From assembly GCA_945787575.1 (NCBI GenBank), contig CALZKB010000012.1, positions 1-37,492 on the forward strand: a stretch of DNA of 37,492 nucleotides, written 5' to 3'. The position numbers and the translations under genes are program-made. A model generated the notes under the pieces. That model was given only the letters and a program-made list of their open reading frames with translations, was not told the DNA's origin and made no database searches. This DNA is from Thermoanaerobaculia bacterium (GTDB lineage: Bacteria > Acidobacteriota > Thermoanaerobaculia > Multivoradales > JAHEKO01). Shown here in pieces: positions 13,721-28,116 of this stretch (position 1 is its first letter; every line of letters begins with the position of its first letter).

Positions 13721-15178
13721 ATGAGAGGGTCGCCGCTGTTCGGAGTCGCAGCTCTGTCGGTTCTCGTGATGACGCCCGCTGCCGGTGGGGCGCAAAAGAC
13801 GACGCCGACGGTGATGTCCGCGGAGACGGAGGAGTGCAACGAGTGCCATGCCAGCGAGACGCGCGGCATCTATCAGGAGTGGGGAACCTCCAAGCACTAC
13901 CGCGCCCACGTCGGTTGCTACGAGTGCCATCGGGCGGAGGAAGGTGAAGCCGACGCCTTCGACCACATGGGGCACTCCATCAGCATCATCGTCTCGCCGA
14001 AAGACTGCGCCCGCTGCCACGAACGGGAGGTGGCCGAGTTCGACGAGAGCCATCACTCGAAGGCGGGCCTGATCCTCGGATCGCTCGACAACTTTCTCGC
14101 CGACGTGGTGGAGGGAGACAAGGCCTTCTTCGGCGGTTCGGCTCTCACCGTGAGCGGATGCAAACAGTGCCACGGCGGCGAGGTGGAGGTCGCCGAGGAC
14201 GGCTCCCTGCTGCCGACCGGTTGGCCCAACACCGGCATGGGGCGCCTCAACCCGGACGGCTCGGCAGGCGCCTGCACGGCCTGCCATCAGCGGCACGCGT
14301 TCTCGGCCGCCCAGGCCCGCCGGCCGGAGAACTGCGGCAAGTGCCACCTTGGACCGGACCATCCGCAGAAGGAGATCTACGAGGCTTCGAAGCACGGAAT
14401 CGCCTTCGAAGCGCACGTTGACGACCTCAACCTCGACAGCGCCAAGTGGGTGCTGGGCGAGGACTACACGGCGGCTCCGACCTGCGCCACCTGCCACATG
14501 TCGGCGGTGCGCACCGCCGACGGCGAGCTGATCCCGGTGACTCACGACGTCGGCCTGCGCATCAGCTGGAACAACCGGCCGCCGATCTCGATCCGGCCCG
14601 AGGTATCGGACGCCAAGCTCGGCCTCGAGAAGATGGCCAAGGTCGGCTGGCAGGAGAGGCGCGCCAACATGAAGCAGGTGTGCGTCGTCTGCCACACCTC
14701 GAACTATGTCGACAACTTCTACCAGCAGTACGACGGCGTCATCGAGCTCTACAACTCGAAGTTCGCCCAACCGGGAAGCGATCTAATGGCGCTGCTGCGC
14801 GAGCATGAGCTGATCAGCGCGCTACAGTTCGACGAAGACGTGGAGTGGACCTGGTGGGAGATCTGGCACCACGAAGGCCGAGTCGCGCGTCACGGCGCTT
14901 CGATGATGGCGCCCGACTACACCCACTGGCACGGGCTCTACGAAGTGGCCAAGCACTGGTACACGAAGTTCGTCCCCGAGCTGCAGGCGATCGTCGCTGA
15001 GCACGTGCACTCCGACGATCCGTCCAGAGTCGAAGGAGCGCGGGCGCTCCAGGCCGCGCTGGACGAGCTGCTCGCCAGACCCGAACACGCGTGGTACACC
15101 GGCAACCTGACCGACGAGGAACGAGAGGCGAGGCGAGCGGCACAGGAGGAGTTCAAGAAGCGGTACGGCGGCGACTAG
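13721..15178 (+). CDS. Octahaem cytochrome c, hydroxylamine-oxidoreductase-like
   Basis: ATG 13721 is preferred over GTG 13712 because GAGGAAGG sits 8-10 bases before it. A signal peptide (MRGSPLFGVAALSVLVM) is cleaved near AGG-AQ. The mature protein has eight CxxCH haem sites: CNECH, CYECH, CARCH, CKQCH, CTACH, CGKCH, CATCH and CVVCH. Order and spacing match the HAO/HaoA family, with CKQCHGG as the likely active-site haem motif. The C-terminal third has the family segments YDGVIELYNSKFAQP and HHEGRVARHGASMMAPDYTH. Members either oxidise hydroxylamine or hydrazine or reduce nitrite or hydroxylamine. Which applies depends on the haem-crosslinking Tyr, which I cannot place with certainty by eye. 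It acts in the periplasm. No partner quinol oxidase or cytochrome is adjacent. Confidence 0.88.
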   Translation: MRGSPLFGVAALSVLVMTPAAGGAQKTTPTVMSAETEECNECHASETRGIYQEWGTSKHYRAHVGCYECHRAEEGEADAFDHMGHSISIIVSPKDCARCHEREVAEFDESHHSKAGLILGSLDNFLADVVEGDKAFFGGSALTVSGCKQCHGGEVEVAEDGSLLPTGWPNTGMGRLNPDGSAGACTACHQRHAFSAAQARRPENCGKCHLGPDHPQKEIYEASKHGIAFEAHVDDLNLDSAKWVLGEDYTAAPTCATCHMSAVRTADGELIPVTHDVGLRISWNNRPPISIRPEVSDAKLGLEKMAKVGWQERRANMKQVCVVCHTSNYVDNFYQQYDGVIELYNSKFAQPGSDLMALLREHELISALQFDEDVEWTWWEIWHHEGRVARHGASMMAPDYTHWHGLYEVAKHWYTKFVPELQAIVAEHVHSDDPSRVEGARALQAALDELLARPEHAWYTGNLTDEEREARRAAQEEFKKRYGGD

Positions 15179-15475: not shown

Positions 15476-17758
15476 TTAATTCGCCGCGGAATGGTGCAGC
15501 GGCAAGGTCTTGTCGATGAGCTTCCCGAGGTCGACCCGGTCGGGGTAGAGCAGCCGTTGTGTCCACTCCGCGTCGACGTCGGCGACGATGATGTCTCCGA
15601 CCTCGTCGTGGACGTTGCTGAAAATGCCGTGAGTCAGCATCTTCTGCGTCTGGTAGTGGTTGTCCTCGGTTGGGGAGACGTAGTGCACCGAGACGATCTT
15701 GTAGCGATGGATGAGGAAGAGGTGGATCAACGACATGAGGCGTTTCTTGCGCAACGCCTTCTCGAAGGTGTTCTGGTCGCGAATCGAGAGCAGGTTGCGG
15801 CCTCGGCGGTCCTTGATGATGGCGAAGATCACGTTGGCGACCTTGGTGCCGGACTCGTCCAGCGCCATCAGTTCGAGCAGATCCGAGGCTGCGGTCTGGG
15901 GCCTGAGCTCGACGCGCAGCGGTGGCAGCTCGTGGTGCGCGGTCCACAGCCCGAGCCACTCCTCGAGCAGCTTGCGTGGCACTTCGGTCTGCACGAGATG
16001 CTGGAACTGAGTCGAGCCCTTGCCCATCGCCTTGGTGGTCGCGGTGCGCCCCGAGGAGGCCATCAGCGCGGCGTCGAGCCGCGGGCCGCCGACAAGGGTC
16101 TGAGGCGTCTTGTAGGGGGACTGCAGCAGCCGGAACTTACGCTGCAGACGGGCCAGCGCCAGCATTCCGTCCTGCCCGAGAGCGGTGGCGAAGTCCTCGC
16201 CTGCCAAGCCGTCGATCTGGTGGCCGCCGTAGGTGATGAAGTTGAAGACGTAGCCGAGCTTGCCGAGCTCCTCGGGAAAGCGCTTCATCTCCTCCTCGCT
16301 CATGCCGGTCGTGTCCCAGTTGAACGATGGTGAGAGGTTGTAGGCGAGCATCTGGTCGGGGAACTTCGCGTGCATGGCCTCGGCGAAGGCCCGGGCATCT
16401 TCGAGGTCCGCCGTCTTGGTCTCCATCCACAGAATGTCGGCGAACGGCGCCACCGCCAGCGACTTGGCGATCGCGTAGTCGATCCCGCCCTGGATCTGGT
16501 AGTAGCCCTCGGGAGTCCGGGGAAGCTCACAATCCCAGATGATGGAGATACCCATCGACCGAGCCTTCTGGCGGGCGGCGAAGAACGACGCGCCGGCGGC
16601 GAATTCGTTCCATTCGTCGACGCTCGAGTCGAACTGCTCGCCCTCGTGGACGCGGAACTCGATGACGTCGGCAACCGCCTGGCCGTAGGTCTTGAGGCCG
16701 GCCTCCGCCTGCCAGCGATCGATGTAGGTCGTCGACACCACGTCGAGCATCGCGTCGACGTTGGCGAATCCACCCTGCTCGAAGGCGTCGACGTTGGCTT
16801 GGATCTCGCTCGACAGACCGGTGCGCTCGAGCCAGGTCTCGGCCGCCGCGTGCTCCTCGTCCGAGAGCGCGAACAGCAGATGGCCCCTGATCTCCTCGAT
16901 GCCGAGATCGTAGAACTTCTTCAAGAGCGTCACGTAGCCGGCCTTGTAGGTCGGCAGCTCCACGTTGGTGGCACCGAGAATGAAAGGCTGATCGCGCTCG
17001 TCGGACCTGCTCTCGAGGAAAGTCGCCGATTCGGCGTCCGTTCGGGCGACGATGATGCCCGCCACCTTCATCACGTCGAGCTGGAAGCGCGCCGCATTGA
17101 GCCTCTTGATCTGCTCGTCGACCGTGACGAGGACCTTGCCCCCTTGATGCCCGCACTTCTTGAGACCGGGCTTCTGGTCCTCGATGTGGTAGCCGGGCAC
17201 GCCGACCTCGACGAACCTGCGAATCAAGTTGCGGACGTGGGCGTCGCCGCCGTGCCCGGTGTCGGCATCGGCGATGATGAAGGGGCGGAAATCGACCTCG
17301 GGCGTCGCCTGGCGCTGCTCTTCGGTCATTCGCGAGCGGGCAAAGTGCTGGTTCCGGTCCGCCGTCAGCAGGGCGCGCACGATCGGCGCCGCTTCGTCCG
17401 GCACCTGACTCAACGGGTAGCTCGCCAGATCGGCGCCGGGGTCTTCGGTGATCGAGCCCTTGGCGGAGGTCGCCCAGCCACCGAGGTAGATACCGCCCAG
17501 ACCGAGCCGTCTCATGGTGACCGCCTGGCCTGGAGAGTAGGGGCCGAAAGTCGTGATGCTCCGGCGACGCCTGAACAGCTCACGGAGGGAATCGTAGAAG
17601 CCCTCGGCCGCCTCTTCGGCGACCGGGTAGTGGTTGGCGATCGTGCCCTGCTGAGCCGCTACCTGAGAGGGAGAGTAGAGGCGTACGATCCCTTCGAAGC
17701 GCGGGCGCGATGCCCAATCTTGTGCTCTTGCCTTCTGTTTCTCGAATGAGCTCATCAT
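15476..17758 (-). CDS. aceA: Isocitrate lyase, long form
   Basis: The 760-residue protein carries the isocitrate lyase catalytic motif KKCGHQGGK at 200-207, with nucleophile Cys202. It also has the metal and substrate segments [10 protein letters not shown] (164-172) and IEDQKPG, and the late motif NLSPSFNW. It splits isocitrate into glyoxylate and succinate in the cytoplasm. Standard enzymes are about 430 residues; this length resembles the long AceA2-type enzymes of mycobacteria, with an insertion between the core motifs and a C-terminal extension. ATG 17758 is preceded by TAGGAG. It starts six bases after the malate synthase stop, so the two form an operon for the glyoxylate shunt, used for growth on acetate or fatty acids. 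Confidence 0.95.
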
Positions 17759-17764
17759 GGGCTC

Positions 17765-19687
17765 CTAGGTAGTCGAGCCGCCGCGCGCGGAGGCGAAGTC
17801 GAGATTCTCGGTGATCCGGACTCCGTCGTCGTGCAGGGCGTCCATGTAGCGGACGATACGCCGTCTGGCGACCGCCAGCTCATGGTTGTCGAGGTTGATG
17901 TTCAAGAGATCGATGTACCACGGGGCTTTCTCGTCGCTGGTGACGTAGATTTCGACGATCTCGCGGGCGATCGGCAAGGTGGTCTCTTTGGACACGTCGT
18001 GGACGTCGCGGTTGCTCGCGTTCCGCAGCTTGTCGAACTCCTCGGACAGCAGCCGGCCAAAGAGCTCGGGGGTGAGCTCGTCGCCCTTCGCGACGCCGGT
18101 CTCGGCGTCGTCCTCGGTGAACGCGGCTCGCTTGTGGAGCCACTCCCACAGAATGCTCAGGCGGATCTCCCCGGTCGCCATGTCCTCCATGAGATAGAGA
18201 ACATCGTCGTTGCCGAAGAAATCGGCCGGCTTGAGCGCGGCCGCTTGGAGCCCTTGGCCGAAGGCGTTGCCGTACTGCAGGCCAACGCTCAACAGATCGC
18301 GTGCCCCGGCCACGGTTCGCGGCGCCGGCTCGAGCAGCAGCAGGCCGTCGGCATCCGCCGGCGTGTAGGTGAGCGGCGGAAACTCGCGGCCGAGCTGGTT
18401 GGCCGCGCCGACCTCTTCCCAGATCGGGCGCACGGCGTGCACCATCTTCCAGTGGGCGACCCACTTGCCGCTGGCGCCCTCCTGCTGTTCGCGGCGGCCG
18501 CCGGCGACCGCCCGCTCGAGCCCGGCGGCGACGCCCTCGGCCGAGCCGACCGGGATGTTGGGCTCCATGCCTCCCTGCCACAGAGCGTAACGGCCTTCGC
18601 GATCCGGGGTGTTGACCGCCCGCCGCACGCGGTCCTCGTAGGTGCGCATGTAGCCGTAGGTCATGGTGATGGCGTCGATATTGGGATTGACGAAGTCCGG
18701 ATCCCACGCCACGGCGTCGGCGACGCTGTTGATGTAATCCCACCGGCCGGTGTTGAAGCCGACGAAGTGCCGGCCCAGCGCCGCCCGGATCTCCATGAGC
18801 TGGAAGCATGCCTCGATCTGCTCGACGAGCACGTAGACCTTGACCGATCCGCCGGGCAGAGCGAGATGTGCTTCGAGGGCCTCGATCATGTTGTTCCACA
18901 ACGCCGCCTCCTCGGCGGTCTGGATCTTGGGGAGATAGAGAACGAGCGACGACCCGGCGTCACGCAAGCGGCGGTGGTTGTTGACGATGTAGAGCGTCAT
19001 GTCGACGAGCGAAGCGGAGAACCCCGAGCCGTCCGCGCAGCGCACGTGACGGTCGTCGAGATGAAGCCCGCGCGGGCGGAAGATCTTGGTCGTGAAGTCG
19101 AGCTGGGAAGTCCAGTCGTCGATGATCCGTCGGCCGAAGAACCCCTCCGACCACTCGTTCATCTCGCCGGCGACCTGTTCCGCAGCGCGCATGAAGACGT
19201 CGTCCTTGGCGATCGCCAGCTTGAGGTTGCGTTGGTTGTCGAGCGACATCGTCCCCACCTGGCCGAGGGCATCCTCACCATCGAACATCCAGCCGTCGGC
19301 GCCGGACAGCAGAGCGTAGGCCACGTTGCGAATGCTCTTCTCGACGGTCGATCGCGGTCTCGCCGCCGGCCCCGTACCCTGGATCCACTGTCGTTCGAGG
19401 TCGGCCGGAATGTCGCTGCCGATGAAGTTGCCGTCGCGCGCGTCCTGGACCGAGATCGCGGTACGCGGGATGATCCGGCGGCCGTCGGGGAAGGAGAGTC
19501 TCCGTCCCTCGCGAGCCCGCCGTGCGCGCCGGGCGAGCCGCGCCGCCATGACCGCCCGGCGCTCGGGCTCGAACGAAGCGAGGGCGGTCAGCGCCGCGAT
19601 CACCTCCGGCGTGAGAACGTCCCGATGGGAAGTCTCGAGGTCAGCGGCGATCTCGAGCGTGCTATCGCTAGTCGTGGAGGTGCTCAT
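17765..19687 (-). CDS. aceB: Malate synthase (A type)
   Basis: The 640-residue protein has malate synthase signatures. PRTAISVQDAR near the N-terminus precedes a DGEDALG segment and LYLPKIQTAEEAALWN. The strongly conserved IEQIEACFQLMEIRAALGRH-like block, GFNTGRWDYINS and ITMTYGYMRTYEDR follow. It condenses glyoxylate with acetyl-CoA to malate. It is longer than E. coli AceB (about 530), with an extended C-terminal helical region (about 520-640). ATG 19687 follows a GGGAGAAAAG ribosome binding site. It is the first gene of the aceB-aceA pair, with a six-base spacer, so both glyoxylate shunt enzymes should be co-expressed. No regulator is adjacent. Confidence 0.92.
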   Translation of the reverse strand: MSTSTTSDSTLEIAADLETSHRDVLTPEVIAALTALASFEPERRAVMAARLARRARRAREGRRLSFPDGRRIIPRTAISVQDARDGNFIGSDIPADLERQWIQGTGPAARPRSTVEKSIRNVAYALLSGADGWMFDGEDALGQVGTMSLDNQRNLKLAIAKDDVFMRAAEQVAGEMNEWSEGFFGRRIIDDWTSQLDFTTKIFRPRGLHLDDRHVRCADGSGFSASLVDMTLYIVNNHRRLRDAGSSLVLYLPKIQTAEEAALWNNMIEALEAHLALPGGSVKVYVLVEQIEACFQLMEIRAALGRHFVGFNTGRWDYINSVADAVAWDPDFVNPNIDAITMTYGYMRTYEDRVRRAVNTPDREGRYALWQGGMEPNIPVGSAEGVAAGLERAVAGGRREQQEGASGKWVAHWKMVHAVRPIWEEVGAANQLGREFPPLTYTPADADGLLLLEPAPRTVAGARDLLSVGLQYGNAFGQGLQAAALKPADFFGNDDVLYLMEDMATGEIRLSILWEWLHKRAAFTEDDAETGVAKGDELTPELFGRLLSEEFDKLRNASNRDVHDVSKETTLPIAREIVEIYVTSDEKAPWYIDLLNINLDNHELAVARRRIVRYMDALHDDGVRITENLDFASARGGSTT

Positions 19688-20097: not shown

Positions 20098-20322
20098 GGT
20101 GGGCCGCGACGGCGAGCCAGCGCCTCCGAGGGCCCCTACTCGCCGTCGAAAGAGCATCCTCTCTTCGGTCAGCCCGAGCGATAGGCCTGTGTTGCGGGAG
20201 CCGACTCCACCTGCCGGAGGATCGGGCGGGGACCCGTGCCCCCGGTCGTCTCGACAGGAAGGCCGGCCACAGGTGCCGGTGGCGAGTGACACCCCGGGGC
20301 CGGCTTGGGTATCCTCGTTCCG

Positions 20323-21705
20323 GTGACCGAGGAAAGGGAGAGCAGCGCAGCCGAGCTTGCCATCGTCATGGCGGGGGTCAGCAACGTGTTCGAGTCCCTC
20401 GGACGTGCCATCGTCTGCCTCAGCCCGCACTTTCAGATCGTCCACACCTCCGACGGTATCGACGCTCTCTTCGGCACCGGCGCGGCCCGCGAGATCCTCG
20501 GCAAACAGGCTCAGGACGTGCTCGGCGACGATCTGTTCGGGACCGGCGGCACGATGCGCAAGGCGCTCGCCGATGGCGAGCGTCGCGAAGGGTGGGGAGC
20601 GACCGTGCGGATCGGCTCGCGGCGACCCCGTCTGGTATCGATCAGCGGCGCACCGATGCAGCATCCGCCGGGGACGCCCTGCGATCCGCAGGTCGCCTAC
20701 GTCCTCGTCGTCCGCCCCGGCGAGAGCGAGGACGGCAGCGGCTCCTCGGCGACGACTCTCTTCTCGGGCCTGATCGGGCGCTCGCGTTCGATGCTGCAGA
20801 CCTTCCACCTGATCGAGAATCTCGAGGAGAGCGACGCCACCGTCTTGCTGACCGGTGAGAGCGGCACCGGGAAGGAGGTCGTGGCGCGCGCCCTGCACGT
20901 CCACTCACAACGCCGCAACAAGCCGTTCGTGGCGGTGAACTGCGGCGCCTTGCCGGGCGAGCTGCTGGAGAGCGAGCTCTTCGGTCACGTGCGCGGCGCC
21001 TTTACCGGCGCGGTGCGCGATCGCGTCGGCCGTTTCGAGGCGGCGGGCGGCGGCACGATCTTCCTCGACGAGGTCGGCGATCTACCACTGCCGCTTCAGG
21101 TCAAGCTGCTGCGAGTCCTGCAGGAGCGATCGTTCGAGAGAGTCGGTGAGAGCACCGGGCGAGAGAGCGAGGCGCGGGTCATCGCCGCCACCAACAAGAA
21201 CCTCCGCAGGGAGGTCGACGAAGGTCGGTTTCGGGACGATCTCTACTACCGGCTACGGGTGGTTCCGATCGAGATCCCCCCTCTGCGCGAGCGCCGCGAA
21301 GACATCGAGCCGCTGGCCCGCCATCTTCTGGTGCGAGTCAACTCACGTCACAACCGCAATCTCCGGCTCTCTCCCGACGCTCTGGAGTCGCTCTTGCAAT
21401 ACCGCTGGCCCGGCAATGTACGCGAGCTCGAAAATGCTCTCGAGTACGCCGTCGCGGTGACTCGCGGGGACACCATCCACCTTCAGCATCTGCCAGCCGA
21501 GGTGCGGGAGTCGGGGTCCGCGGCCACCGGCGAGACGCCGCCTTCGGCAGCGGAAGCGCCACCCGATGCCGATTCGGGAGAGCGCCAACGCATCGTCGAG
21601 ACCTTGCAAGCCCACCAGTGGCGCCGGGCCGACGCCGCGCGGGCGCTGGGCATGAGTCGCACGACCTTGTGGCGCAAGATGCGCGAGCTCGGCTTGCAGG
21701 ACTGA
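20323..21705 (+). CDS. PAS-AAA+-Fis sigma54-dependent activator of the sulfur operon
   Basis: This is a single-component enhancer-binding protein of about 460 residues. A PAS-like sensor occupies about residues 15-120 (SLGRAIVCLSPHFQIVHTSD). The AAA+ domain (about 145-380) is complete: Walker A GESGTGKE, the sigma54-contact motif GAFTGA, Walker B IFLDEVGDL, sensor I AATNKNL and WPGNVREL. A Fis-type helix-turn-helix closes the protein (RRADAARALGMSRTTLWRKM). With a PAS domain and no receiver, it probably senses a ligand or redox state directly. It is followed by repeated TGTTGCAAC boxes and a -24/-12 promoter in front of the sulfide oxidation genes, its likely target. The start is uncertain: GTG 20323 or in-frame TTG 20305, neither with a strong ribosome binding site. 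Unlike the copy at 649-2056, it is intact. Confidence 0.9.
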   Translation: MTEERESSAAELAIVMAGVSNVFESLGRAIVCLSPHFQIVHTSDGIDALFGTGAAREILGKQAQDVLGDDLFGTGGTMRKALADGERREGWGATVRIGSRRPRLVSISGAPMQHPPGTPCDPQVAYVLVVRPGESEDGSGSSATTLFSGLIGRSRSMLQTFHLIENLEESDATVLLTGESGTGKEVVARALHVHSQRRNKPFVAVNCGALPGELLESELFGHVRGAFTGAVRDRVGRFEAAGGGTIFLDEVGDLPLPLQVKLLRVLQERSFERVGESTGRESEARVIAATNKNLRREVDEGRFRDDLYYRLRVVPIEIPPLRERREDIEPLARHLLVRVNSRHNRNLRLSPDALESLLQYRWPGNVRELENALEYAVAVTRGDTIHLQHLPAEVRESGSAATGETPPSAAEAPPDADSGERQRIVETLQAHQWRRADAARALGMSRTTLWRKMRELGLQD

Positions 21706-21848: not shown

Positions 21849-21865
21849 TTGGCACGCCTTCTGCT
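21849..21865 (+). promoter_or_regulatory. Sigma54 (-24/-12) promoter of the sulfide oxidation operon
   Basis: TTGGCACGCCTTCTGCT matches the sigma54 consensus TGGCACG-N4-TTGCW. The invariant GG (21851-21852) and GC (21863-21864) are separated by exactly 10 bases. Transcription should start near 21876, about 33 bases before the sqr ATG at 21909. Activator boxes and an activator gene precede it. Confidence 0.8.
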
Positions 21866-21908: not shown

Positions 21909-23198
21909 ATGAAGAACCTGCTCATTCTCGGCGCCGGAACCGCCGGCACGATGGTCGCCAATCAGATCCGCAAGACCCTGCCGGCCGACTGGTCGACGAC
22001 AGTCGTCGACCCCGAGCCGACTCATCTCTACCAGCCTGGGCTGCTCTTTCTCCCCTTCGGCGCCCGCGACGAGGCCCAGATGCAGAAGCCGCGCGCCAAG
22101 ACCCTCGGCTCGGACGTGCAGTGGATTCGCAAGAGCGTGGAGCTCGTCGACCCGGACAAGCAGCAGGTCGTGCTGGCCGATGACGAGCGCCTCGACTACG
22201 ACCTGCTCGTCATTGCCAGCGGGTCCTCGATCCGCCCCGACGAGACGCCCGGCCTGCTCGGCCCGCACTGGCACGATTCGGTGCACGACTTCTACACCCT
22301 GGAGGGCGCCCAACGCCTGCGCGACTCTCTGGCCGCCTTCGAAGGCGGCAAGCTGGTCGTCAACATCGTCGAGATGCCGATCAAGTGCCCGGTGGCGCCG
22401 CTCGAGTTCCTGTTCCTCGCCGATGATTTCTTCAAGCGGCGGGGCATCCGCGATCGGGTCGACCTGGTCTACGCGACGCCCCTCGATGGCGCCTTCACCA
22501 AGCCCGCCTGCTCGGACGTCCTCGGCTACCTGCTCGAGGAGAAGGGGATTCGCCTGGAGACCGAGTTCAATGCCGGAGCGGTGGATGGCGACGCCCGGAT
22601 CCTGCGCTCCTACGACGAGCGTGAGATCCCCTACGACCTGCTGGTGACCGTCCCGACCCACATGGGAGCGCCGTTCATCGAGGCTTCGGGCCTCGGCGAC
22701 GACCTCGCTTTCGTGCCCACCGACAACCACACCCTGAAAGCCGTGGGACACGACAACATCTTCGTGCTCGGCGACGCCGCCAACGTGCCGACGTCGAAGG
22801 CCGGCTCGGTGGCGCATTTCCAGAGCGAGGTGGTGGTCGACAACCTGATGCGCACGATCCAGGGGCGCGCCCTGCACAAGGGCTCGGACGGCCACGCCAA
22901 CTGCTTCATCGAGAGCGGCAACGGCAAGGCTCTGCTGATCGACTTCAACTACTACGTCGAGCCTCTGCCCGGGCACTATCCGCTGCCTGGCGTCGGCCCC
23001 TTCACCCTGCTCGGCGAGAGCCGGCTGAATCATGCCGGCAAGCTCGGATTCCGCTGGCTCTACTGGAACGCCTTGCTGCCGGCGCGGCGGCTTCCGGTGG
23101 GCAACCGTATGTCCATGGTCGGTAAGAAGACCATCAAACTGAACGGCAAGAAGGCGGACGCCGCCGGTGCCGACGAACGAGAAACACGAGCCGCATGA
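21909..23198 (+). CDS. sqr: Sulfide:quinone oxidoreductase-like flavoprotein
   Basis: The 429-residue protein starts with the FAD dinucleotide fold LLILGAGTAGTMVA (4-17). It has the second binding block DLLVIASGSS (98-107), the late FAD motif NIFVLGDAAN (283-292) and KAGSVAHFQ. Redox cysteines Cys160 (MPIKCPVAP) and Cys332 correspond to the pair that carries sulfur in SQR; a third Cys at 201 is present. SQR is a monotopic enzyme at the periplasmic or cytoplasmic membrane face that oxidises sulfide to polysulfide or sulfane sulfur and reduces quinone. The amphipathic C-terminal part (about 370-400) could anchor it. The ribosome binding site is AGAGGA. It is the first gene after the sigma54 promoter and is followed by sulfur-transfer genes, which strengthens the call. 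Confidence 0.87.
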   Translation: MKNLLILGAGTAGTMVANQIRKTLPADWSTTVVDPEPTHLYQPGLLFLPFGARDEAQMQKPRAKTLGSDVQWIRKSVELVDPDKQQVVLADDERLDYDLLVIASGSSIRPDETPGLLGPHWHDSVHDFYTLEGAQRLRDSLAAFEGGKLVVNIVEMPIKCPVAPLEFLFLADDFFKRRGIRDRVDLVYATPLDGAFTKPACSDVLGYLLEEKGIRLETEFNAGAVDGDARILRSYDEREIPYDLLVTVPTHMGAPFIEASGLGDDLAFVPTDNHTLKAVGHDNIFVLGDAANVPTSKAGSVAHFQSEVVVDNLMRTIQGRALHKGSDGHANCFIESGNGKALLIDFNYYVEPLPGHYPLPGVGPFTLLGESRLNHAGKLGFRWLYWNALLPARRLPVGNRMSMVGKKTIKLNGKKADAAGADERETRAA

Positions 23199-23227
23199 AG
23201 CGCGCTCCAGTCAAGGAGGATGCAGCA

Positions 23228-23545
23228 ATGGAAGCCATCAACTACGCCGGTCAGACGGTCGAGGTCAACGACGAGGGGTTCCTCACGAACAGCGAGCATT
23301 GGACTCCCGAGGTCGCCGGGGCGATCGCCGAAGAGGTCGGCATCGGCCCCCTGACCGACGAGCACTGGAAGGTCATCACCTTCTGCCGCGAGGACGCAGC
23401 GCAGCAGGGGACGCCTCCCGGCCTGCGGCGGATCTCGAAGCTCTCCGGAGTCAACATGAAGGATCTCTACAGGCTCTTTCCCAAGGGCCCGGGCAAGCTC
23501 GCCGCCAGGATCTCCGGACTCCCCAAGCCCCAGGGCTGCATCTAG
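23228..23545 (+). CDS. tusE: TusE/DsrC-family sulfur-carrier protein with a single C-terminal cysteine
   Basis: ATG 23228 is preferred over in-frame ATG 23195 (which overlaps the sqr stop) because AAGGAGG lies directly before it. The 105-residue protein has the DsrC/TusE fold signatures: DEGFL, WTPEVAGAIAEEVGI, LTDEHWKVI and GPGKLAARISGLPKP. It ends in the C-terminal arm GCI with the penultimate Cys (CysA). True DsrC has a second Cys (CysB) eleven residues earlier; here that position is Ala. It is therefore the TusE/single-Cys type, which relays persulfide sulfur rather than forming the DsrC trisulfide of sulfite reductase. With SQR before and DsrE after it, it probably accepts sulfane sulfur made from sulfide. 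No dsrAB is in the window. Confidence 0.9.
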   Translation: MEAINYAGQTVEVNDEGFLTNSEHWTPEVAGAIAEEVGIGPLTDEHWKVITFCREDAAQQGTPPGLRRISKLSGVNMKDLYRLFPKGPGKLAARISGLPKPQGCI

Positions 23546-23572: not shown

Positions 23573-24103
23573 ATGAGCTCGACAGTCACCCTGGAGAAGC
23601 CGCAGACCGCTGCCGGAAGCGGCGAAGACCGCCCCCGGCGCCAGCGGATCGAGCACGTCTCGATCATCTGCTCGAAGGGCACGCTCGACATGGCTTACCC
23701 CGGGCTCATCCTCGCCAACGCGGCCCGGATGAGCGGTATCGACGCGACCCTGTTCTTCACCTTCTGGGGTCTCGACATCATCACCGAGAAGCGGCTCGAC
23801 CATCTCCACGTGTCGACGGTCGGCAACCCGTCGATGCACATTCCGACGATGGTCGGCGGGCTGCCGGGGATGGAATCGCTGGCCTCGACGATGATGAGGA
23901 AGGAGATGGAGAAACTCGACATTCCGCCCGTCCGCGAGATGTTGGAGATGCTCCACGACGCCGGCGCCAAGATGTACGGCTGCCGGATGGCGATGGACAT
24001 GTTCAAGCGCGAGAAGGAAGACCTGGTGCCGTGGGTCGACGACGTGATCTCGGCGATGGACTTTTTCGACAAGAGCCAGGGAGCTCAAGTGCTCTTCATC
24101 TGA
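23573..24103 (+). CDS. DsrE-family sulfur-transfer protein
   Basis: The 176-residue protein belongs to the DsrE/DsrF/DrsH-like family. After a short flexible N-terminus comes VSIICSKGTLDMAYPGLILANAARMSGIDATLFFTFWG, the first beta-alpha unit. Later, AGAKMYGCRMAMDMF carries the conserved Cys at about 140 that takes persulfide. The length and the WGLD segment resemble DsrE2/DsrE3-like members, which have been linked to TusA- and Hdr-type cytoplasmic sulfur oxidation. AGGAAGGAG precedes the ATG. It lies 27 bases after the TusE-like gene, in the same operon. It likely passes sulfur between SQR product, TusE and an acceptor that is not encoded here. Confidence 0.87.
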   Translation: MSSTVTLEKPQTAAGSGEDRPRRQRIEHVSIICSKGTLDMAYPGLILANAARMSGIDATLFFTFWGLDIITEKRLDHLHVSTVGNPSMHIPTMVGGLPGMESLASTMMRKEMEKLDIPPVREMLEMLHDAGAKMYGCRMAMDMFKREKEDLVPWVDDVISAMDFFDKSQGAQVLFI

Positions 24104-24140: not shown

Positions 24141-25478
24141 ATGAGAACCTTCAAGCATACGCTTGCGGCACTGGTCATCCTGGCCATGACGATCCCGGGC
24201 GCCGTACAGGCCACCAACGGGATGTACTTGACCAGCTACGGTGCCGAGTCGATGGGCCGGGCCGGTGCCAACCTCGCGATCGCCGATCGGGGACTGGCAC
24301 TCAACTTCAACCCGGCGGGCATCGGCCAGCTCCAGGGGCGTCACTTCACCCTCAATCTCTCGGTCTTGGCGCCCTCGCTGGAGTATCAGAACACCCTGAA
24401 CGACGCCATCAACGGCGACGACCGGTACTTCCCACTGCCGGCGATGGCCTACGTCCGCTCGGCCAAGAACTCACCGTGGGCGTTCGGCGTCGGCTTCGTG
24501 GCGCAGGGCGGCATGGGCGCCACGTTCGAAGGCGAGAGCACGTTCTTCGGCACCGTCGATCAGACCTACACCGAAGTCCGGTTCATGACCTTGAGCCCGA
24601 CGGTCTCTTATTCCTTCGGCGAGGACATGGCGATCGGTCTGGCGCTCAACCTCGGTTACGCCGACGCGTCGTTCAAGTTCTTCCCGGAGACTTCCTTCTT
24701 CAACGTCGAGAGTCCCGACCAGAGCTTCTTCGGCGTCAACATGAAGCAGGCGGGAGGCGAGCAGTTCAACGCCCGGCTCGGCTGGTGGTGGAGAGCCAAT
24801 CCGAAGCTTTCGATCGGCGCCATCTACCAGACCGAGACCGAGAGCACCTACGACGGCGGCGAGCTGTCGATGAACTTCACCGGTCATCCCTTCGTCGGGC
24901 GTGAGGTGATGTACGAAGCCGAGATGGAGGGGTTCACCTTCGCCGCCCAAGCCGGTGTCGGCATCGCCGTAAGGCCTGCCGAGCGCTGGATCCTGGCGCT
25001 CGACGTCAAGCGCTACTTTTGGGACCACGCTATCGACAGCATCGTGGTGACGGCCCGTAATCCCGACTCCGAGACGGCACCACCCGAGGTGACGCTCCCC
25101 CCGTTCGTCTTCAACTGGGAGGATCAGTGGATCGTCGCGTTCGGTGGTGACTACCGACTCAACGACGTGCTCACCCTGCGTGCCGGCCTCAACTACGGTG
25201 AGAATCCGGTCCCCGACGACACTCTGACCCCGCTATTCCCAGCCACGGTGGAGCGCCACCTTACTTTCGGGTTCAGCTATCTCCGCGGCAACAAACTCCT
25301 CGAGTTCGCCGTGGAGCGAGGTTTCGACGAGGACCTGGTCAACAACTCGACCGATCCGTCGGTCAACCCGTTCGGTCCCGGTTCCGCCGTGACCCATGGC
25401 CAGTGGAGCGCCGGCTTCGGTGTCTCCTGGGCTCTGGATCGCAGAGCGGGTCGGGCGGGCGACTTTGGCATGGAGTGA
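24141..25478 (+). CDS. OmpP1/FadL-family outer-membrane transport protein
   Basis: The 445-residue protein has a signal peptide (MRTFKHTLAALVILAM, cleavage near VQA-TNG). It then has the FadL hallmark start of the mature chain, TNGMYLTSYGAESMGRAGA, with the NPAG turn at about 54-57. Alternating beta-strand segments with aromatic girdles and Gly/Asp turns run to a C-terminal strand (SAGFGVSWAL). FadL-type barrels bring hydrophobic molecules such as long-chain fatty acids or aromatics across the outer membrane. Its place in a sulfide operon is unusual; movement of elemental sulfur or polysulfide, or of a hydrophobic carrier, is possible but inferred. AAGGAG precedes ATG 24141. It shows that the cell has an outer membrane. 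Confidence 0.88.
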   Translation: MRTFKHTLAALVILAMTIPGAVQATNGMYLTSYGAESMGRAGANLAIADRGLALNFNPAGIGQLQGRHFTLNLSVLAPSLEYQNTLNDAINGDDRYFPLPAMAYVRSAKNSPWAFGVGFVAQGGMGATFEGESTFFGTVDQTYTEVRFMTLSPTVSYSFGEDMAIGLALNLGYADASFKFFPETSFFNVESPDQSFFGVNMKQAGGEQFNARLGWWWRANPKLSIGAIYQTETESTYDGGELSMNFTGHPFVGREVMYEAEMEGFTFAAQAGVGIAVRPAERWILALDVKRYFWDHAIDSIVVTARNPDSETAPPEVTLPPFVFNWEDQWIVAFGGDYRLNDVLTLRAGLNYGENPVPDDTLTPLFPATVERHLTFGFSYLRGNKLLEFAVERGFDEDLVNNSTDPSVNPFGPGSAVTHGQWSAGFGVSWALDRRAGRAGDFGME

Positions 25479-25484
25479 TCCATC

Positions 25485-25901
25485 ATGAAAAGACTATCGA
25501 TAGTGATCGTCGCCCTCGCTCTCGGGCTGGTATGGCCGCCGAGCGCGCAAGCCTCGAACGCCACCGCCAAACGAGAAGGTCTCTCTTGCACCGCCTGCCA
25601 CGACAAGCCTGGCAGCAAGCTGCTGACGAGTGAGGGCAAGTACTACGAGCTGATGCGGACGCTGGACGGCTACCAGGAGCTGATGGCCGAGTTCGGCAGC
25701 TGCACCTCCTGTCACGTTCGCAAACCCGGTTCGAAGAAGCTGACCGAGAACGGCAAGCGCTTCCTGTGGATGATGGAGGACATGAGCGGCCTCAAGAGCT
25801 GGCTCGAAGATCTCCACCCGATCGCTCCGGCCGAGCCCGAGGCCGACGACTCGCCACCTGCCGAGGCGCAGGAGAGCACGCCTGAAGTGGTCAAACCCTG
25901 A
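25485..25901 (+). CDS. Small dihaem cytochrome c
   Basis: The 138-residue protein has a signal peptide (MKRLSIVIVALALGL, cleavage near AQA-SN) and two haem c sites, CTACH (35-39) and CTSCH (73-77). The two halves look duplicated: CTACHDKPGSKLLTSEGKYY against CTSCHVRKPGSKKLTENGKRF. The tail is Pro/Glu-rich and probably disordered. As a periplasmic electron carrier it could take electrons in sulfur oxidation or donate them to a terminal oxidase. It begins six bases after the FadL-type gene, so it is the last gene of the sigma54-controlled unit, and a GC-rich hairpin follows. It is not a close match to SoxX, SoxE or FccA by eye; the family is unknown to me. Confidence 0.85.
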   Translation: MKRLSIVIVALALGLVWPPSAQASNATAKREGLSCTACHDKPGSKLLTSEGKYYELMRTLDGYQELMAEFGSCTSCHVRKPGSKKLTENGKRFLWMMEDMSGLKSWLEDLHPIAPAEPEADDSPPAEAQESTPEVVKP

Positions 25902-26001: not shown

Positions 26002-28116
26002 GTGAGCGACGTGACGACGCCTTCCCTCGACCCCATCTTCTCCCCCCGCTCGGTGGCGGTCATCGGTGCCTCCACCCGTCGTGATTCGATCGGCTTCGCC
26101 CTCCTCCACAACCTCGTTATCGAGGAGTTCGAGGGTGCTCTCTACCCGGTGAACCCGACCGCCTCCTCGATCCACTCGCTCAAGGCGTACCCCTCGATCG
26201 GCGCCGTCCCCGATCCGGTGGACCTGGCGGTCATCGCCGTCCCCCGCGACGCCGTGCGCGGCGTCATCGAGGAATGCCTGGCCACGGAAGTCCGCGGTCT
26301 GGTGGTGATCACCGCCGGATTCTCCGAGACCGGCCACGAGGGTGCCGTCCTGGAGCGCGAGCTGCGGGACCTGGCCCGCGGCGCCGGCGTACGCATGATC
26401 GGCCCGAACTGCATGGGGGTGCTCAACACCGATCCGGCGGTGCGACTCAACGCCACCTTCTCGCCGACTCCCGCGCGGGCCGGCACCATCGGCTTCGTCA
26501 GCCAATCCGGGGCCCTCGGTGTCGCCATTCTCAACGCGGCGCAGGATCTCGGCGTCGGTCTGACGCAGTTCGCCTCGATGGGCAACAAGGCCGACGTCGA
26601 CGGCAACGACCTGGTCGAGTTCTGGGAAGACGACGAGCGCACCAACGTCATCTGCATGTACCTCGAGTCGTTCGGCAACCCGCGACGTTTCACCGAGATC
26701 GCCAAGCGCGTCGGCCGCAAGAAGCCGATTCTCGTCGTCAAGTCCGGCCGCACCGCCGAGGGAGCCCGTGCCGCCACCAGTCACACCGGAGCGATCGCCG
26801 GCGCCGACGTCACGGTCTCCGCTTTCCTCGAACAGTGCGGGGTGCTGCGCGCCAACACGATCTCGGAGCTCTTCGACATCGCCAAGGCGCTGTCGCGCTG
26901 CCCGCTGCCGGCAGGCCATCGCGTCGCGATTCTCACCAACGCCGGCGGCCCCGCCATCATGGCCACCGACTCGTGCATCAACCTCGGGTTGACGCTGGCG
27001 GAGCTGTCGGAGGCGACGCGCGCAGAGCTGGCGACCTTCCTGCCGGCGGAAGCCAGCCTCGTCAACCCGGTCGACATGATCGCTTCGGCCACCCCCGCCG
27101 ACTACGCTCGGGCGCTCGACCTCGTGCTGCGCGACGAGCAGGTGGACATGGCGCTCGTGATCAACGTGACGCCGCTGCTGTCGTCACCCACCGACGTCAT
27201 GGAGGCGGTCACGCGGACCGCCGGAGAGAACTCGAAGCCGGTCTTAGCGGTGATCATGGCGACCGAGGATTTCTACGAGGAGATGAAATCCCGCTCCGGA
27301 CATCCGCCGATCTACCGTTTCCCGGAGCCGGCCGCCAACGCCTTGGCGCAGCTCGTCCGTTACGCCGACTGGCGCCGCCGGCCGGCCGAGGAGGCGACAC
27401 CCGATTTCCCCGTCGACGACGGCGCGGTGAGCCGGATCCTCGACCCCGCTCCCGAGGGTTATCTCAGTGACGCCGAAGCCTTCCGCGTGCTGCGCCACTA
27501 CGGCATACCGCTCGTCGACGGACGCAAGGTCGACACCGTCGAGCAGGCGTTGGCGGCGGCCGAGGAGATCGGCTACCCGGTGGTGGTCAAGGCGATCGGC
27601 GCCGAGCTGATCCACAAGAGCGACGTCGGGGCGGTCAAGATCGACCTGCGCAGCCCCGCCGACCTCCAACAGGCGATGGCGGAGATCGACGTGGCGCTCG
27701 GCGCGAAGGATCTGGCGCCCGAGGGATACCTCGTCCAAGAGCTCGCTCGCGGCGGGCACGAGGTGATCTTCGGGATGTCGACCGATCCCCGTTTCGGGCC
27801 GCTGTTGATGTTCGGCCTCGGCGGCAAGTACGTCGAGGTGCTGCGCGACGTGCACTTCGGCGTCACCCCACTCAAGCCGAGCGAGGCGCGCGACATGATC
27901 CGCGGCCTGCGCGGCTACCCGCTGCTCGAGGGAGTCCGCGGCGAAGCACCCGCCGACCTGGCGCGCCTCGAGGAGACGCTCCTGAGAATCGCCCAGCTCG
28001 TCACCCGGCACCCGCGGATCCTCGAGCTCGACATCAATCCCTTCCTCGCCGCGCCGGAAGGGGTCGAGAGCAAGGCTCTCGACGTGCGGATCCGGGTCGG
28101 CCCGGCGAGCGTCTGA
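26002..28116 (+). CDS. ADP-forming acyl-CoA/acetyl-CoA synthetase, fused subunits
   Basis: The 704-residue protein has the full set of NDP-forming acyl-CoA synthetase domains. First is a CoA-binding Rossmann domain (about 10-105, SVAVIGAST). Next are two succinyl-CoA-synthetase-like domains (about 150-470) with phosphohistidine His261 in TSHTGAIAGA. A C-terminal ATP-grasp domain (about 480-700) has YPVVVKAIGAELIHKSDVGA and LELDINPFLA. It interconverts acyl-CoA + ADP + Pi with acid + CoA + ATP in the cytoplasm. Substrate range (acetate, propionate, aryl acids) cannot be told from sequence. It starts at GTG 26002, 100 bases after the sulfur operon. Acetyl-CoA so formed could feed the nearby glyoxylate shunt genes. 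Confidence 0.93.
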   Translation: MSDVTTPSLDPIFSPRSVAVIGASTRRDSIGFALLHNLVIEEFEGALYPVNPTASSIHSLKAYPSIGAVPDPVDLAVIAVPRDAVRGVIEECLATEVRGLVVITAGFSETGHEGAVLERELRDLARGAGVRMIGPNCMGVLNTDPAVRLNATFSPTPARAGTIGFVSQSGALGVAILNAAQDLGVGLTQFASMGNKADVDGNDLVEFWEDDERTNVICMYLESFGNPRRFTEIAKRVGRKKPILVVKSGRTAEGARAATSHTGAIAGADVTVSAFLEQCGVLRANTISELFDIAKALSRCPLPAGHRVAILTNAGGPAIMATDSCINLGLTLAELSEATRAELATFLPAEASLVNPVDMIASATPADYARALDLVLRDEQVDMALVINVTPLLSSPTDVMEAVTRTAGENSKPVLAVIMATEDFYEEMKSRSGHPPIYRFPEPAANALAQLVRYADWRRRPAEEATPDFPVDDGAVSRILDPAPEGYLSDAEAFRVLRHYGIPLVDGRKVDTVEQALAAAEEIGYPVVVKAIGAELIHKSDVGAVKIDLRSPADLQQAMAEIDVALGAKDLAPEGYLVQELARGGHEVIFGMSTDPRFGPLLMFGLGGKYVEVLRDVHFGVTPLKPSEARDMIRGLRGYPLLEGVRGEAPADLARLEETLLRIAQLVTRHPRILELDINPFLAAPEGVESKALDVRIRVGPASV

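Follow-up and report, generated by a model that had tools for sequence, protein, structure and literature searches.

Sulfide oxidisers and sulfur reducers must shift insoluble zero-valent sulfur between the outside of the cell and the periplasm. No outer-membrane protein for S0 transport has yet been confirmed by experiment (PMC10045233), and in Chlorobaculum an unknown transport route has to be assumed for sulfur (PMC12285230). What role is played by a FadL-type outer-membrane channel and a dihaem cytochrome that are the last genes of a sulfide-oxidation operon in an uncultured member of the Thermoanaerobaculia (Acidobacteriota)? Because proven outer-membrane sulfur transporters are lacking, this FadL is a useful and testable candidate. 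The window analysed here (37,492 nucleotides) makes up the whole of contig 12 in a metagenome-assembled genome of 5.59 Mb and 97.5% completeness.

A sulfur operon ending in a channel and a cytochrome

All genes of the locus lie on the + strand. The first encodes a sigma54-dependent activator with a PAS-like N-terminal domain, an AAA+ domain and a Fis helix-turn-helix (20305..21705; PF00158 1.5e-70, PF02954 1.7e-13, PF08448 1.4e-4). It is followed by a sigma54 (-24/-12) promoter, TGGCACGCCTTCTGCT (21850..21865, + strand), which has one mismatch and lies 59 bp upstream of the start of a type III sulfide:quinone oxidoreductase (SQR; 21909..23198; NF049943 601 bits, cut-off 525). Next come a DsrC/TusE-family sulfur carrier (23195..23545; PF04358 3.4e-31) and a DsrE2-family sulfur carrier (23573..24103; PF13686 5.2e-35), then the FadL/OMPP1/TodX-family channel (24141..25478) and the periplasmic dihaem c-type cytochrome (25485..25901). 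The original prediction had described these last two genes exactly, at the same coordinates, and had placed them inside a sulfur operon; the profile matches of the three upstream genes bear this out. From SQR through the cytochrome the intergenic gaps are -4, 27, 37 and 6 bp, the last as first reported. A scan of the 37-bp gap between DsrE2 and FadL for sigma70-like promoters or terminators found nothing above shuffles. The layout thus supports the proposed co-transcription of FadL and the cytochrome with SQR, DsrC and DsrE2.

The sulfur proteins of the operon were examined for their diagnostic cysteines. Cys160 and Cys332, the redox pair of SQR, are conserved in 84/84 aligned sequences, in keeping with the type III assignment. 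The same protein exceeds the cut-off of an NCBIfam model for a 'selenoprotein subtype', and its gene has no in-frame UGA. Cys115, the sole C-terminal cysteine of the DsrC-like protein, is present in 99% of the alignment and has no second conserved partner, so the protein lacks the two C-terminal cysteines of DsrC sensu stricto, whose partner is DsrAB. Together with the failure to find any dsrA match in the 97.5%-complete genome, this makes a reverse Dsr oxidation pathway improbable in this organism. The DsrE2-like protein scores 107 bits against the DsrE2 equivalog NF047629 (cut-off 210) and retains an invariant Cys137. Elsewhere in the genome is an operon in which split YeeE/YedE genes are followed by that of a rhodanese-metallo-beta-lactamase protein, likely a persulfide dioxygenase.

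In cable bacteria a route of type III SQR, YeeE, TusA and DsrEFH has been described (PMC13293266). There, as here, a type III SQR would feed a chain of sulfane-sulfur carriers; the present genome differs in having no dsrA match, and the cable bacteria route names no outer-membrane component.

Several neighbouring features were also recorded. An octahaem cytochrome (13814-15178, +; PF13447 multi-haem 5.5e-24) is encoded some 5 kb ahead of the operon. Just upstream of the operon, at 15476-19687 on the - strand, are two long genes whose translations alone resemble isocitrate lyase and malate synthase (glyoxylate shunt). A gene of about 235 amino acids between SQR and DsrC recurs in many phyla (L097, L101, L106 and others) and has no counterpart in the present Acidobacteriota operon. 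The copy between the type III SQR and DsrC at L086:9233-9943 matches DUF1641 (1.1e-8), and the Verrucomicrobia copy has no DUF1641 match.

The channel and its clade

The FadL protein matches Pfam PF03349 (Toluene_X/OMPP1-FadL-TodX) with an E value of 4.8e-33 (114.7 bits, cut-off 29.7). The closest sequences with solved structures are TbuX, CymD and TodX. An AlphaFold model built from seven sequences reached pLDDT 66 and pTM 0.71 with low confidence in the hatch region, and was applied to fold assignment only, not to pocket chemistry. Foldseek placed the TbuX, TodX and FadL crystal structures on top (E 5e-28 to 7e-24), with TbuX matching at E 5e-28 and TM 0.69-0.78. The protein is therefore predicted to adopt the FadL barrel fold with an N-terminal hatch. 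The NPA hatch motif (N57-P58-A59) is invariant in the 17 FadLs that are paired with the cytochrome. TbuX, TodX, CymD and E. coli FadL have the fold, the signal peptide and this motif in common with the operon FadL at about 20% identity; unlike them, it has a sulfur operon, a sigma54 promoter and a paired cytochrome. The mature part is free of cysteine in 16/17 paired FadLs, that of the window among them. A barrel without cysteine cannot bind sulfur covalently, and a covalent persulfide route through it was rejected.

Because PF03349 includes long-chain fatty-acid porins, we wondered whether an ordinary one had come to lie in the operon by chance. An ADP-forming acyl-CoA synthetase (26002-28116), which would be its partner, is encoded about 100 bp downstream on the same strand. 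Against this, the protein scores 35.9 bits with the FadL equivalog NF007988 (long-chain fatty-acid transporter; cut-off 585), and the better of the eight PF03349 matches in the genome (L002, 194 bits vs 114), which is the best overall, falls in a different clade. A search of relatives detected no synthetase homologue downstream of the pair, and for this reason the synthetase was discounted as part of the operon. A fatty-acid porin is very improbable.

Trees were constructed to place the operon FadL within its family. In a tree of 51 sequences the cytochrome-paired FadLs formed one clade (support 100/99), and SQR-adjacent FadLs of Verrucomicrobiota, gp13 Acidobacteria and Balneolota fell with them on one side of a branch supported at 100/97. 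Forty more FadL neighbourhoods, selected by FadL score alone, were then added. The larger tree of 70 sequences contains a 31-member clade, drawn from Acidobacteriota, Verrucomicrobiota, Balneolota and Calditrichota, with support of 100/97, although its bootstrapping had yet to converge fully and long-branch warnings were raised. Sulfur genes lie within 8 kb in 23/31 clade members vs 0/39 sequences outside; the remaining eight members have no sulfur neighbours in the sequence examined, many contigs being short and the trees covering part of the PF03349 matches. When only context-blind FadLs were counted, sulfur neighbours were found for 8/13 inside the clade vs 0/38 outside (Fisher p 2e-6). As a forward check, two FadLs put in the clade by the tree (L170 and L200) then proved to adjoin TusA and DsrE2.

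A FadL gene stands beside SQR in Verrucomicrobiota (L097, L101 and L106), Balneolota (L043), Calditrichota (L090) and gp13 Acidobacteria (L086); the other phyla were sampled by a scan of SQR loci, which under-samples the clade outside such loci. In Verrucomicrobiota the FadL gene is upstream of SQR, the two open frames lying 4 bp apart. The paired clade has at its base a FadL of the same genus as the window (G001, L214:10378-12308) with neither cytochrome nor SQR; ahead of it are encoded a small membrane protein containing a CC motif and a regulator of Crp-like type. This FadL possibly carries a different cargo.

The dihaem cytochrome and its pairing with FadL

The cytochrome has 138 aa, a signal peptide and two CxxCH motifs. 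It had been described as having an internal duplication with one haem in each half, and this is borne out. An alignment of the two halves scores 71, compared with a mean of 19.5 (sd 4.3) for shuffles; with CxxCH held fixed the shuffled halves score 35.7 (sd 4.3), and 0/2000 scored as high. Among 19 sequences the consensus of the first half is CTxCHDKPGSKLLTDxGKYYELMxTLDGY and that of the second is CTxCHVRKPGSxKLTxxGKxF...DMEGL...HP. Met100 and His111 are invariant in these sequences and are possible distal haem ligands. The sole profile match, to Paired_CXXCH_1 (1.2e-4; 22.1 bits vs 20.6), is motif-driven, a search of the PDB with the cytochrome returned no relative, and a single-sequence AlphaFold model (pLDDT 52) was set aside.

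Relatives of a single cytochrome half, with one haem and about 80 aa, occur in other Acidobacteriota. Those at L138:8309-8881, L137, L139, L140 and L141 are periplasmic proteins whose genes do not adjoin FadL, and at L138 they form a tandem pair. These one-haem proteins are consistent with the dihaem cytochrome having arisen by duplication.

The position of the cytochrome gene was compared across genomes. Of 99 relatives searched, 19 have the cytochrome, each directly after FadL. A phylum-wide search of 396 genomes added one further pair (G382) and otherwise returned one-haem relatives away from FadL. The cytochrome thus directly follows FadL in 20/20 genomes that carry it, supporting the view that the two genes form an obligatory pair. 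In the present search it was found only in Acidobacteriota.

The original prediction suggested a search for the pair next to sqr in other genomes, and there it recurs. Nine of the 20 pairs follow SQR-DsrC-DsrE2 (the window, L109, L110, L113, L116, L121, L122, L123 and L125), and the closest named SQR loci belong to Acidobacteriota, Thermoanaerobaculia. Persulfide dioxygenase, TusA and a second DsrE2 are also next door in L122 and L125, with a CsoR-type repressor in L122. By genome, the pair and SQR co-occur with p 1.6e-5, and with p 8e-4 outside the family of the window. YeeE/YedE and rhodanese genes lie beside five of the 20 pairs. In two of these (L111 and L118) the order is activator, YeeE/YedE, rhodanese, DsrC, FadL, cytochrome; in the other three (L117, L120 and L124) PsrA/PsrC-type (polysulfide-reductase-type) genes, split YeeE/YedE and rhodanese precede the pair. 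The L111 locus includes an octahaem OTR-type cytochrome (PF11783), different from the PF13447 octahaem protein of the window. At L114 the pair adjoins persulfide dioxygenase, TusA and DsrE2. Altogether 15/20 loci have sulfur genes beside the pair. The other five have no sulfur gene in view: L112, L119, L216, where the pair is in an operon with an ArsR-family gene, and L115 and L126, which are cut by contig ends.

These neighbourhoods bear on whether FadL imports a hydrophobic organic sulfur compound, such as an organic polysulfane, a disulfide or a thiophene, the sulfur operon then handling the released sulfide. FadL barrels pass hydrophobic organics, and the nearest solved structures, TbuX, TodX and CymD, are aromatic hydrocarbon channels that carry toluene or p-cymene, not sulfur, which also counts against a sulfur channel. 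Yet the annotated genes of the paired loci include no catabolic oxygenase of the kind expected in a TodX/TbuX-style aromatic catabolic operon, and no lyase or thiol-releasing gene either. Furthermore, FadL stays while the inorganic modules (SQR, PsrABC, YeeE/YedE, persulfide dioxygenase and OTR) vary. As the annotated neighbours show no organic-sulfur catabolic gene, organosulfur uptake is the weaker alternative and quite unlikely.

The strict pairing also raises the question of whether the dihaem protein plugs the barrel as a porin-cytochrome conduit, so that electrons pass through the outer membrane in either direction between the cell and external sulfur or metal. An MtrB/PioB-like barrel gene about 3.6 kb from the L126 pair and a multihaem ORF beside the sister locus L136/L216 could be taken in its favour, as could the obligatory gene pair itself. 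MtrAB, Pcc and fused Cyc2 systems, however, have a large multihaem protein in a wide barrel, or a fusion, and here there is a separate two-haem protein and a FadL-type barrel. The FadL barrel has 14 strands and a lumen filled by the hatch, and two haems in about 115 residues are unlikely to span the membrane. Many FadLs of the clade lack a neighbouring cytochrome gene, among them those from the three further phyla and from gp13 Acidobacteria. A conduit is accordingly improbable. Because it is expendable outside Acidobacteriota, the cytochrome is predicted to be an accessory redox partner and not the channel.

Control of the operon and its proposed role in sulfur traffic

Upstream regions were searched for sigma54 promoters. 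One-mismatch sites lie 44-90 bp upstream of 11/16 SQR genes examined, and two more of the 16 have sites with two and three mismatches; the background rate is 0.005 sites in 350 bp. Pairs that stand alone have a one-mismatch site before FadL itself (at -69 in L112 and at -82 in L119, the latter directly behind an activator gene). A FadL promoter of its own under fatty-acid control, which would have spoken against the original prediction, was not seen; the stand-alone pairs bear the same sigma54 type of promoter. Taken together, the conserved pairing, the sulfur-gene context, the single FadL clade and the sigma54 promoters indicate that the operon FadL belongs to a sulfur-associated subfamily distinct from the fatty-acid-type FadL of the cell.

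The activator is of FisR type in its domains and in the sigma54 promoter on the sqr operon. In Cupriavidus and Acinetobacter, FisR controls sigma54 sulfide operons (PMC7315123); there too the activator joins an N-terminal regulatory domain to AAA+ and DNA-binding domains, and a sigma54 promoter drives sqr. In contrast to those systems, the activator here has two invariant cysteines in a PAS-like domain (Cys38 and Cys126 of P0006, conserved in 12 homologues), through which it plausibly senses persulfide, and the operon carries the FadL-cytochrome pair, a DsrC-like protein and DsrE2.

In Acinetobacter and Cupriavidus, SQR operons under FisR-like regulation detoxify sulfide (PMC7315123). This would fit a barrel that only vents toxic polysulfide or sulfur made by SQR in the periplasm, the cytochrome being an unrelated carrier to a terminal oxidase, and a periplasm-facing SQR would let its products gather there. 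The same pair, however, is found in PsrABC operons, where sulfur must enter, and the cytochrome invariably follows the barrel. Venting alone is unlikely.

The best reading of these loci is that the FadL channel is common to sulfide-oxidising and polysulfide-reducing modules. FadL is constant while the sulfur enzyme is either SQR or PsrABC, and zero-valent sulfur or polysulfide is what these share, so it is the proposed FadL substrate. The original prediction of a role in moving elemental sulfur or polysulfide across the outer membrane holds in its gene association, which recurs, extends to FadL alone in four phyla and coincides with a sulfur clade; substrate and direction are what we infer. 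The pair would be the envelope end of a sulfur-trafficking system in which FadL passes zero-valent sulfur and the cytochrome is a periplasmic redox partner, a reading we judge to have about an even chance of being right.

In such a system SQR at the inner membrane, taken as periplasm-facing like the type III SQR of cable bacteria (PMC13293266), would turn sulfide into polysulfide, and in the sister loci PsrABC would reduce it. The FadL-type barrel would let hydrophobic or only slightly polar forms of zero-valent sulfur, namely S8, long polysulfanes and protonated polysulfide, cross the outer membrane, outward in sulfide oxidation and inward during reduction or re-use. Close to the channel, the dihaem cytochrome might trade electrons with sulfur chains, or it might hand electrons on to the respiratory chain. 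YeeE/YedE would bring sulfane sulfur inward, where DsrE2, TusA and DsrC-like carriers would hold it and persulfide dioxygenase could oxidise it. The sigma54 activator would turn the operon on.

A stronger version is a dedicated outer-membrane port for zero-valent sulfur, in which a FadL subfamily of at least four phyla carries S8 or polysulfide and the Acidobacteriota cytochrome opens or closes sulfur chains at the channel; we regard it as possible but on balance doubtful. H2S crosses without a channel and general porins could serve small anionic polysulfides, both of which count against a sulfur channel. So do the five pairs and eight clade members with no sulfur gene in view, the cysteine-free barrel and the many clade members that have no cytochrome. 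Were the proposal true, this FadL would be the first outer-membrane sulfur transporter identified. That such a channel recurs next to sulfur genes in four phyla qualifies it as a candidate, open to test, for an outer-membrane gate for solid or chain sulfur. The clade, with its SQR, PsrABC, YeeE/YedE and persulfide-handling context, supplies a definite target for deletion, expression and assay. Annotations as 'long-chain fatty acid transporter' may mislead in sulfur bacteria.

Other outer-membrane proteins have been proposed for this task. In the literature covered, from which subscription journals were mostly absent, no FadL is named as a transporter of elemental sulfur or polysulfide. OprD-like porins of Sulfurovum and Sulfurimonas have been proposed for S0 uptake (PMC10045233). 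Like the FadL of the window they are a proposed outer-membrane route for zero-valent sulfur, but their family is unrelated to FadL and their support comes from expression, not gene linkage. Porin RS05170 of Desulfurivibrio dismutans, together with periplasmic rhodaneses and YeeE/YedE, has been proposed as a polysulfide importer (PMC12142623). Its locus resembles the FadL loci in that sulfurtransferase and YeeE/YedE genes adjoin that of an outer-membrane porin; it belongs to a different phylum, and the portion of that report consulted describes no SQR or dihaem cytochrome alongside.

The rhodanese-domain proteins beside the pair in L111:17713-18402, L117:7361-8011, L118:13677-14372, L120:11626-12309 and L124:11679-12359 are membrane-anchored, and the usual active-site loop (YSAEGIHSAQ) contains no cysteine in them. 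All of them terminate in ...KKEGC or ...REGC, and a YeeE/YedE-rhodanese fusion in L111 terminates in ...KGGC. The C-terminal cysteine of the rhodanese-domain proteins may be a sulfur-carrier tail.
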